Source: Desulforhabdus amnigena (GTDB lineage Bacteria; Desulfobacterota; Syntrophobacteria; Syntrophobacterales; Syntrophobacteraceae). Taken from it: 64,000 nt of DNA. The DNA lies in the NCBI RefSeq assembly GCF_027925305.1, contig NZ_BSDR01000001.1, forward strand, positions 1,019,001 through 1,083,000, read 5' to 3'. Made by a program: the position numbers and the translations under genes. Positions 4,361 to 7,699 of this stretch are shown in pieces. Position 1 is the stretch's first letter. The number at the start of each line of letters is the position of its first letter. The notes under the pieces were generated by a model. That model saw nothing but the letters and a program-made list of their open reading frames with translations. It was not told where the DNA came from and searched no databases.

Positions 4361-4768
4361 ATGGAAAAAGATCTGGTGAAAAGGACTCAAAAAACGGCAA
4401 AAGCTCTCTTTGATGGCCCAACAACACTCGAAGTTCCCTATCATTTATGGAAAGAATTCGACCGGGATCTGGCCAAGGACCTCTCGCTTTTCATAACCGG
4501 CAATCTTTATTCCAGAGAAGTTTTGCCTCTGCCCGAACGCCAGATGGTTGCGGTTGCAGCCCTGGCAGCACTTCAGAAAACCGAAGAACTCAAAATACAT
4601 TTGCACGGCGCATTGAACGTGGGGGTTCCCCCAAAAAAGCTGAGTGAAACCATTTTTCAGATCGGAGTTTATGCCGGCTTTCCTGCGGTAAACTCAGCAC
4701 TTTCAGCGTTCAAGGAAGTTTTGATCAGCCGTGGACAATGGCCGCTGCCTCATGACGAACAGCCATGA
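4361..4768 (+). CDS. Carboxymuconolactone decarboxylase (CMD) family protein
   Basis: 135-residue, all-helical CMD-fold protein. The LPLPERQMVAVAALAAL and HLHGALNVGVPPKKLSE segments are typical of the family. The CxxC pair of the AhpD-type peroxidase reductases is absent, so it belongs with the PcaC/gamma-CMD-like branch, and redox activity through a disulfide is unlikely. Substrate unknown. AAGAAAGGTG upstream of the ATG serves as ribosome site. It stands alone between repeat-rich spacers. Confidence 0.85.
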   Translation: MEKDLVKRTQKTAKALFDGPTTLEVPYHLWKEFDRDLAKDLSLFITGNLYSREVLPLPERQMVAVAALAALQKTEELKIHLHGALNVGVPPKKLSETIFQIGVYAGFPAVNSALSAFKEVLISRGQWPLPHDEQP

Positions 4769-4965: not shown

Positions 4966-5077
4966 AGAACCTATCCGGAAACCACCTGTGGACTTTGCGA
5001 CACCCCCCTTGGTCCCCCCTCGAGGGGGGAATTAAAGGGGGGTGTCCGCTGCCGAGGTAGGTTTTCGGATAGGCTCT
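4966..5077. repeat. MITE-like element with AGAACCTATCCG ends and C/G-tract core
   Basis: The left end (4966-4983) and the reverse complement of the right end (5060-5077) match at 16 of 18 positions. The core is a run of C, CTCGAG, then a run of G, continuing GGGGGGAATT. This core motif recurs in the 145-bp elements at 48408 and 57152, although the ends differ. AAGTA before and AAGTC after could be a five-base target duplication with one change. Confidence 0.6.
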
Positions 5078-5099
5078 AAGTCAGGAAAGGTCGACGAAC

Positions 5100-5303
5100 A
5101 TGCCAATTTATGAGTACCGATGCAAGAGTTGTCAGAATGATTTTGAAATATTGATTATTTCTTCCGATGACCAACAAAATGCAACGTGCCCAAAATGCAA
5201 GAGTCGCGAAGTTGAACGGATCCTGTCTTGCTTTTGTAAATCATCGGCCATAACAGACGGAGCTGGATCGAGTTGCAATGCCGGTTCCGGAGGATTCAGC
5301 TGA
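5100..5303 (+). CDS. FmdB-family zinc-ribbon protein
   Basis: 67-residue protein beginning MPIYEYRCKSC, the hallmark of the FmdB putative regulatory protein family, with a second CPKC pair forming one zinc ribbon. The tail is Ser/Gly-rich with extra Cys (SCFCKS, SSCNAGSG). It could bind zinc or a protein or nucleic acid partner; the role is unproven. AGGAAAGG lies eight to ten bases before the ATG. The small membrane ORF at 5410 follows by 106 bases on the same strand, and the two may be co-transcribed. Confidence 0.88.
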   Translation: MPIYEYRCKSCQNDFEILIISSDDQQNATCPKCKSREVERILSCFCKSSAITDGAGSSCNAGSGGFS

Positions 5304-5409
5304 GCATGAGATCACTTCGACTGGCAGTTGAAGCGATTATCTCTCCTGAGTGTCATGAAAATAAGCGGAAGTCGAAGACTGGATGGGGCAGACAGATCTG
5401 GAGGTAAAA

Positions 5410-5553
5410 ATGTCTTGGGATGTACTGATTTTAATTGTAGCAGTAGTCGTTTGGGTTGTCCTCAATCGCTGGATATTTCCCAAAATGGGGATTCCTACCT
5501 GAATGTCTTCTTCCTGTGAGATTGGAAATCCCACAAAAAAGAAAAATTCTTAA
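5410..5553 (+). CDS. Small single-span membrane protein, candidate selenoprotein (in-frame TGA at 5500-5502)
   Basis: An ideal GGAGGT ribosome site (5400-5405) precedes an ATG that opens 30 codons: MSWD, a hydrophobic span at about residues 5-18, then NRWIFPKMGIPT and TGA. Reading TGA as Sec extends the frame by 16 residues (MSSSCEIGNPTKKKNS) to a TAA at 5551-5553, giving a 47-residue protein with a Sec-x4-Cys pair and a lysine-rich tail. The RNA at 5515-5535 folds into UGUG-A-GAUU, apical GGA, AAUC-C-CACA: eight pairs with one A.C mismatch, loop starting 21 bases after UGA, within the range known for bacterial SECIS. If TGA is a stop, the gene ends at 5502 as a 30-residue membrane peptide. 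No sel genes lie in the window. Confidence 0.5.
5515..5535 (+). promoter_or_regulatory. Candidate bacterial SECIS hairpin
   Basis: Pairs 5515-5518 with 5532-5535 and 5520-5523 with 5527-5530, A5519 opposite C5531, apical loop G5524-G5525-A5526. Guanines at the start of a small apical loop 16-37 bases after UGA are what SelB recognises in known bacterial SECIS elements. The match is structural and by eye, and covariation has not been checked. Confidence 0.4.
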
Positions 5554-7624: not shown

Positions 7625-7699
7625 TGGAGGCGGCAATCGGATTCGAACCGATGAATAACGGTTTTGCAGACCGCTCCCTTACCACTTGGGCATGCCGCC
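7625..7699 (-). tRNA. tRNA-Cys (anticodon GCA)
   Basis: The minus strand folds as a cloverleaf: acceptor GGCGGCA/TGCCGCC, a short CCC/GGG D-stem, anticodon arm GCGGT-CTGCAAA-ACCGT with anticodon GCA, T-arm ATCGG-TTCGAAT-CCGAT, discriminator T and an encoded CCA (7625-7627). It lies about 110 bases downstream of enolase on the same strand, so it may also be reached by read-through from eno. A strong terminator follows. Confidence 0.95.

Follow-up and report, generated by a model that had tools for sequence, protein, structure and literature searches.

A predicted 47-residue membrane selenoprotein with a Sec-x4-Cys motif in Desulforhabdus amnigena and its homologues in other bacteria

Positions 5410-5553 on the + strand of the window, that is, the whole stretch of 64,000 nucleotides of Desulforhabdus amnigena DNA that was analysed, appear to encode a small selenoprotein. 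A probability of about 0.93 is assigned to this reading, which is drawn from sequence comparison and is not accompanied by direct evidence of selenium; the presence of selenium in the protein and the insertion of selenocysteine (Sec) are inferred. Read directly, the gene consists of an ATG, 30 codons up to a TGA, 16 further sense codons and a TAA, and its translation with TGA as Sec (U) is MSWDVLILIVAVVVWVVLNRWIFPKMGIPTUMSSSCEIGNPTKKKNS (47 residues). The original prediction, made from the DNA letters alone, had described a ribosome binding site, a 30-codon reading frame with one membrane span, the TGA and 16 more codons before TAA, all of which were found again on re-reading, as was the Cys that it placed after the TGA, five codons on. 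Its proposal that UGA is read as Sec is supported by the conservation of the TGA, by Sec/Cys exchange among homologues, by a covarying hairpin and by the presence of the Sec machinery. The features concerned, in window coordinates, are as follows.

4361..4768, + strand: carboxymuconolactone decarboxylase (CMD) family gene, farther upstream (PF02627, 56.4 bits)
5100..5303, + strand: FmdB-family zinc-ribbon gene, upstream (TIGR02605, 58.9 bits; PF09723, 60.9 bits)
5400..5404, + strand: Shine-Dalgarno sequence GGAGG, 5 nt ahead of the ATG (read directly)
5410..5553, + strand: putative selenoprotein gene, 47 residues, Sec at 31, TAA included (reading of the frame, and homologues)
5413..5484, + strand: single hydrophobic helix, residues 2-25, predicted membrane span (AlphaFold2; family hydropathy and charge bias)
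5500..5502, + strand: UGA, assigned to selenocysteine 31 (TGA, TGT or TGC in 109/109 located homologues)
5515..5517, + strand: TGT, Cys36 of the Sec-x4-Cys pair (x4 spacing in 81/97 members)
5515..5535, + strand: bSECIS-like hairpin, apical loop GGA at 5524-5526, 21 nt past the UGA (folding and family covariation)

The genome of the window (G000) is one contig of 4.54 Mb. The FmdB gene has no internal TGA, and the gap before it (4966-5078) holds an imperfect inverted repeat, cctatccggaaacc ... ggttttcggatagg, with a GC-rich palindrome within; a second copy of one arm was not found in the window at up to 3 mismatches. A tRNA-Cys gene (GCA) lies at 7625-7699, about 2 kb from the selenoprotein gene.

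A search of 40 genomes, including the window's own, with the 47-residue query (Sec at the TGA) gave matches at E <= 3.5e-4 in 36 of them, with an in-frame TGA in 36/36. The other four (G003, G005, G019 and G021) gave no match either with this query or with a mixed profile, A4. In an alignment of 28 sequences built from Sec forms (A1), the invariant residues besides M1 are W21, P24, G27, Sec31, Cys36 and G39. The window's phylum, Desulfobacterota, was sampled with 395 genomes; the A1 profile detected a homologue at E <= 0.001 in 168, and all of these carry the TGA form. This last count rests on 149 genomes among the matches listed (E <= 1.1e-8), with the TGA inside each row, and on the best match in each of the other 19, which were re-searched with A4 and translated to give a TGA at the Sec column in 19/19; one of these (L219) has a TAG two codons beyond the TGA and another (L220) is a very weak match. 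The Sec column was verified by translation for the fetched loci only, not for each row of the 168-genome table. No replacement of the TGA by a Cys codon was seen in this phylum sample (168/168 TGA), within the reach of a profile made from Sec forms. Five genomes of one genus, g39 (G056, G093, G128, G156 and G183), have two matches each, possibly paralogues of the small protein.

A further 39 loci, 34 of them with TGA, came from scanning genome contigs and lie in records titled Deltaproteobacteria and relatives, Planctomycetes, Acidobacteria, Spirochaetes, Myxococcales, Aminicenantes, KSB1, Cyanobacteriota and Chloroflexi. These records are mostly metagenome-assembled genomes (MAGs) with unverified titles, and one of the two scan patterns contained a Cys codon, which biases the scan toward Cys forms. 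A set of 109 located homologues from several phyla was assembled by adding to the window 72 neighbourhoods that had been fetched and 36 of the 39 scan loci. In this set L079, L084 and L101 are counted once, via L130, L135 and L134, and 108 distinct genes are represented, since L095 and L097 are the same over the gene. The aligned codon is TGA in 101, TGT in 5 and TGC in 3, and in none of the 109 is it TAA or TAG; the script that located the column sought U or C, and the one locus that it failed to place (L180) was read by eye as TGA. Homologues with TGC or TGT in place of TGA, which the original prediction had suggested looking for, thus exist (8/109) outside the phylum sample, in records titled Deltaproteobacteria, Planctomycetes, Chloroflexi and Cyanobacteriota, and all eight read on through C-x4-C. 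Homologues that end at the TGA with nothing conserved beyond, which would have refuted the prediction, are not the case here, and the sequence after the TGA is conserved. Relatives were absent among 43 pattern hits in viral contigs, and a plasmid search with one Cys form gave no match.

Conservation is weaker at the second Cys than at the Sec: of 97 members, 81 keep the exact Sec/Cys-x4-Cys spacing and 94 have a Cys within 3-8 residues. The 97 members are the 109 loci less 12, namely L180 and 11 loci that lack an ATG at 24-36 codons ahead of the column. Among divergent homologues, L207, L208, L210 and L218 are weak and have a TGA (KTUL...) without any Cys afterwards, and L096, L180, L211, L213, L214 and L220 have altered residues or spacing around the Sec (e.g. 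RGUGVG, LGUG).

The hairpin described in the original prediction, eight pairs with an A.C mismatch and a GGA loop 21 nt past the UGA, is present as drawn, but its energy alone is weak. In the RNAfold structure the A.C is open and separates two blocks of four pairs (4+4), and the energy is -5.1 kcal/mol over 25 nt (z -1.38, 20/200 shuffles folding equally well) and -7.4 kcal/mol over 48 nt (z -1.17, 25/200 shuffles folding equally well), so that the folding energy was rejected as stand-alone evidence. The window hairpin by itself is no better than chance, and it is the family that carries the case, since 36 of 40 genomes match with TGA and the stem covaries in 30 relatives. According to the accessible part of one paper (PMC13188914), the bSECIS model requires a 3-9 nt loop that has G in the first two positions, an upper stem of 4-16 bp, a distance of 16-37 nt from the UGA and a minimum free energy of -7.5 kcal/mol or lower; the window hairpin meets the rules for loop, stem and spacing (GGA, 4+4 pairs, 21 nt) and narrowly misses the energy limit with its -7.4 kcal/mol over 48 nt.

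In 30 relatives compared in a fixed register, 73.7% of the cells are paired, against 33-52% when the 3' side is slid by 1-3 positions and a maximum of 65.6% in 2000 shuffles, which do not remove relatedness. Changes on both sides occur at 7 of 9 stem pairs, the two outermost pairs are poorly kept (19/30 and 13/30), and the loop is GGN in 30/30. The covariation that the original prediction had proposed as a check was thereby found, and, judged from these aligned sequences, the stem covaries with compensatory changes. Over all phyla the fixed register gave only 52% paired cells because the position of the loop differs among sequences, and this count was replaced by fitting the published bSECIS constraints (G in the loop, spacing window) to each sequence. 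The mean score of 99 TGA forms (the 101 TGA loci less L180, unplaced by the script, and L078, with 41 nt left on its contig) is 17.2 versus 7.4 in codon-shuffled controls scored alike, 76% of them rank in the top 5% of their own codon shuffles, and in those scoring at least 12 the loop mostly starts 15-24 nt from the UGA. Seven hairpin regions were also aligned as DNA by MAFFT, and this alignment forms no part of the later evidence. A SECIS-like hairpin is kept in two of the eight Cys forms (ranks 0.0 and 0.03 among their own shuffles) versus ranks of 0.24-1.0 in the other six; the two are those in genomes with SelB, and the six are in genomes without SelB over the cut-off. The hairpins in the Cys forms of SelB genomes are as expected of recent Sec-to-Cys changes.

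The genome of the window contains a single SelB over the cut-off (383.2 bits, G000:C1:1501871-1503769), a tRNA-Sec (72.9 bits, 1344835-1344929) and a SelD (403.9 bits, G000:C1:1265998-1266918) that has its own in-frame TGA and is therefore probably a selenoprotein itself. The RNA model for tRNA-Sec is permissive, because 5 of 14 control genomes also pass its cut-off. Of the sel genes that the original prediction proposed to look for, selB, selC and selD are present, and the absence of selB and selC, which would have contradicted it, does not apply. SelB is over the cut-off in 353 of the 395 phylum genomes, 160/168 with the small gene versus 193/227 without (p 7e-4, ignoring relatedness); since SelB is so common there, this co-occurrence has little power, and it was rejected as strong proof. 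Eight genomes have the family but no SelB that passes the cut-off, and they are drafts with a completeness of 76-98%; in one (G204) pieces of SelB lie on two contigs, and in the other seven no SelB was recognised among matches at E <= 1e-10.

The division is sharper in a sample of 246 genomes of the phylum of G418, inferred to be Planctomycetota from a Pirellulales record, in which 22 have the gene, 18 as TGA and 4 as Cys forms: SelB passes the NCBIfam cut-off in 17/18 of the former versus 0/4 of the latter (Fisher p 7e-4). It is less clean in six further genomes reached through chosen loci, where SelB occurs with the Cys form in G419 and G421 (in G421 only when pieces are joined) and not in G420 and G422, and with the TGA form in G424 and not in G423. 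Neither G423 nor another TGA-form genome, G432, has a SelB over the cut-off. Missing SelB in TGA-form genomes is weak evidence because these are mostly drafts or MAGs, and the absence remains unexplained. A second, diverged SelB (about 215-308 bits) was observed in several relatives (G026:C26, G028:C2, G034:C12, G008:C43 and G003:C208), with a shorter second tRNA-Sec-like gene within about 1.5 kb, and these pairs possibly constitute a second recoding system.

The median length in the family is 52 residues (97 members). AlphaFold2 predicts for the window protein one long helix (residues 2-25) followed by a low-confidence tail, with a mean pLDDT of 69 and block values of 86 and 88 over residues 1-20, and this model does not meet the description of a thioredoxin fold. 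In 93 of the 97 members the 12 residues past the span are more positive than the N-terminus, and by the positive-inside tendency of the charges the Sec end should be cytosolic. The original prediction had left the Sec-x4-Cys pair at either the cytosolic or the periplasmic face; the charge bias supports the former and not the latter, and the pair most likely faces the cytosol.

Gene neighbours were counted in the near flanks of the 109 loci (the first 2.5 kb on each side, 508,730 bases) and in the far flanks (the rest of the fetched sequence, 625,592 bases). FmdB is near 14 loci versus 0 in the far flanks, adjacent and on the same strand in 11 including the window, and is the commonest neighbour of Sec forms (14/101 within 2.5 kb). 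ArsR-type genes are near 12 loci versus 1 far; rhodanese domains, alone or in MBL-rhodanese genes, near 9 versus 0; DsbD/CcdA near 7 versus 0, with five of the seven lying on the opposite strand and sharing a gene order; and thioredoxin near 7 of 109 loci versus 2 far (p 0.05), with the query trimmed of its small-protein part. The CMD gene is near 4/109 loci, the window included. The p-values for neighbours, 1e-5 to 0.05, are optimistic because the query families were picked post hoc and many loci are related. All-against-all clustering of open reading frames in the near flanks only, the far flanks being excluded, placed FmdB (13 loci) and ArsR (12 loci) first, and a third cluster of 12 loci contained thioredoxins mixed with Cys forms of the small protein.

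Individual gene orders place several of these families next to one another. In L155 a thioredoxin gene ends 20 nt ahead of the Sec form, counted to its first aligned codon, and in L162 this distance is 8 nt. The row in L166 is ArsR, Sec form, FmdB and thioredoxin; that in L093 is thioredoxin, Cys form and DsbD-thioredoxin; and in L204 an FmdB-like start follows the small protein immediately. In a Pirellulales record (L079:7965-8465, the same as L130), a thioredoxin-like gene is followed by a Cys form in frame with a TrxA-like domain (WCGPC), although a second start codon ahead of this domain is possible.

A thioredoxin-linked role, in which the protein is a membrane-anchored selenol/thiol relay facing the cytosol, is inferred only tentatively from these neighbours. 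SelB and tRNA-Sec would read the UGA as Sec, guided by the hairpin just past it, to give a single-span inner-membrane protein with its N-terminus outside and a G-x-x-T-Sec-M-S-x-x-Cys motif at the cytosolic face, followed by a charged, disordered tail. The Sec and Cys might form a redox couple (selenenylsulfide/selenol) reduced by cytosolic thioredoxin, and electrons or a sulfane sulfur atom might be passed between thioredoxin and membrane partners such as DsbD/CcdA-like proteins; for some Cys forms the partners may be sulfide-oxidising enzymes. The redox chemistry and the partners are inferred. The selenol is taken as the essential group because Sec is more conserved than the second Cys. Against a thioredoxin role, thioredoxin is near only 7/109 loci, and the four weak homologues mentioned above lack a Cys past the Sec.

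The alternative that survives best, although still rather unlikely, keeps the selenoprotein and makes sulfane-sulfur (persulfide) transfer its main job, between sulfide:quinone reductase (SQR), rhodanese/persulfide dioxygenase and acceptors. It draws on the nine loci with rhodanese within 2.5 kb and none in the far flanks, and on the surroundings of certain Cys forms: in L131 and L132, both from the Planctomycetota sample, the row is a TauE/SafE exporter, MBL-rhodanese, the Cys form and an SQR-like flavoprotein, which in L131 is closest to the NCBIfam model 'type III sulfide quinone reductase, selenoprotein subtype' (259 bits, cut-off 525), and in L101/L134 the Cys form is preceded by a rhodanese-YgaP gene and an MBL-rhodanese gene. 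Such support hardly extends to the Sec forms, only 5/101 of which have rhodanese within 2.5 kb, and SQR was found only beside these two Cys forms.

A role of the selenoprotein in binding or detoxifying a metal or metalloid such as arsenic or mercury, with control by an ArsR-type regulator, is improbable, even though ArsR-family genes are concentrated near the gene (12 loci versus 1) and the contig of one Cys form (L099) has ArsA-, ArsD-, ACR3- and ArsC-like genes, as judged from translations. The regulators are untyped: the one in L166 clears the cut-off of the general ArsR/SmtB model alone (74.6 bits against 55), its next-best model being BigR with 56.5 of the 155 bits needed. Among the neighbourhoods read, ars efflux genes occur only at L099, and relatives without the second Cys exist.

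If the UGA were an ordinary stop, the product would be a 30-residue membrane peptide, a kind of peptide that is common, and conservation beyond the stop would belong to an RNA element such as a regulatory hairpin. The weakness of the window hairpin on its own and the few TGA forms in genomes without detected SelB could be cited for this. Codon use past the TGA argues otherwise: in 122 distinct sequences (129 TGA sequences less duplicates), the Ser at +2 is encoded by 60 TCN and 19 AGY codons, the Ser at +4 by 36 TCN and 29 AGY, and the Cys at +5 by 37 TGT and 67 TGC. Between the window and L002 of the same genus, 11/16 codons past the TGA are identical or synonymous, versus 7/60 past the stop. 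Because Ser uses both TCN and AGY and Cys both TGT and TGC, the residues past the UGA are, on the evidence of the codons, under protein-level selection. A stop with a regulatory hairpin was rejected on these synonymous codons and on the Cys forms, all eight of which continue through C-x4-C and six of which lack a hairpin above their own shuffles; the column, moreover, is never TAA or TAG. Just as little can be said for reading the UGA as another amino acid, e.g. Cys or Trp: tRNA-Sec-like variants with other charging have been described and several relatives have the diverged SelB beside a tRNA-Sec-like gene, but the window's genome has a single SelB that passes the cut-off, together with the 72.9-bit tRNA-Sec and the TGA-bearing SelD, and the hairpin fits the bSECIS rules for loop and spacing, as far as these are given in the accessible part of PMC13188914.

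The family as a selenoprotein family was found in no catalogue searched. The window protein matches 0 NCBIfam families at E <= 1 and no Pfam family over the gathering score; 21 members of A4 gave two stray NCBIfam matches only at E <= 0.1 (E 0.029 and 0.086) and only weak Pfam matches (best E 0.012). In the PDB no relative was found, the single sequence match being a ribosomal protein (E 0.41). Membership of Tso or of any NCBIfam, Pfam or PDB family was rejected, as no match passes a cut-off. DUF5337 (PF17272) shares weak similarity over the membrane span in 3/21 members (best E 0.012), but the match of the window protein is confined to residues 6-30 with 15.8 bits against a gathering score of 27, and membership was rejected on this score. 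The three selenoprotein operon (Tso; TsoA, TsoB, TsoC, TsoX and TsoY in NCBIfam) likewise involves selenoproteins and rhodanese/DsbD themes, and the DsbD-like neighbour of the Cys form L093 scores 82 bits for TsoB (cut-off 805) and the ArsR of L166 scores 41 bits for TsoR (cut-off 115); however, no family member tested matches the Tso models, and the TsoA motif is LULAxC whereas that of the present family is TUMSxxC.

The accessible part of PMC13188914 (2026) lists 119 bacterial selenoprotein families and subfamilies in its Table 1, no row of which, to the extent available, resembles the present family by name, domain or motif, UxxxxC not being among the motifs. The known bSECIS selenoproteins of that paper, as far as the accessible part describes them, share with it the in-frame UGA, followed at 16-37 nt by a hairpin with G in its loop, as well as the occurrence of both Sec and Cys homologues and the Sec machinery. 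The same source gives, in that part, an FmdB family zinc-ribbon protein with UxxU as a predicted selenoprotein; FmdB (TIGR02605) is a frequent neighbour of the small selenoprotein but a separate protein. No description of the protein was found in the literature as far as it was accessible, including the available parts of PMC12013277 and PMC9312934, preprints and most subscription journals being outside the search; a 'hypothetical protein GOS_A', listed without an accession in the table passage of PMC9312934 that was available, remained outside the comparison. The gene is expected to be missed by annotation, although no published annotation was compared, because a standard gene finder stops at the UGA and leaves a 30-codon reading frame.

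Taken as a whole, the small protein would represent a family of about 50 residues with a single span, normally with Sec and only exceptionally with Cys, whose selenol accepts sulfane sulfur or electrons on the cytosolic side and is recycled by thioredoxin in an unknown anaerobic sulfur or redox step; this complete picture has somewhat less than an even chance of being correct. About four tenths of the phylum genomes sampled have the family, and the titles of other records place it in several further phyla. Natural comparisons are offered by the occurrence of one small protein as a Sec form, as a Cys form, in frame with thioredoxin and with a relic hairpin. If the reading is true, the catalogues searched lack a selenoprotein that 168/395 genomes of one phylum possess, and the selenoproteome counts for these bacteria would be too low.
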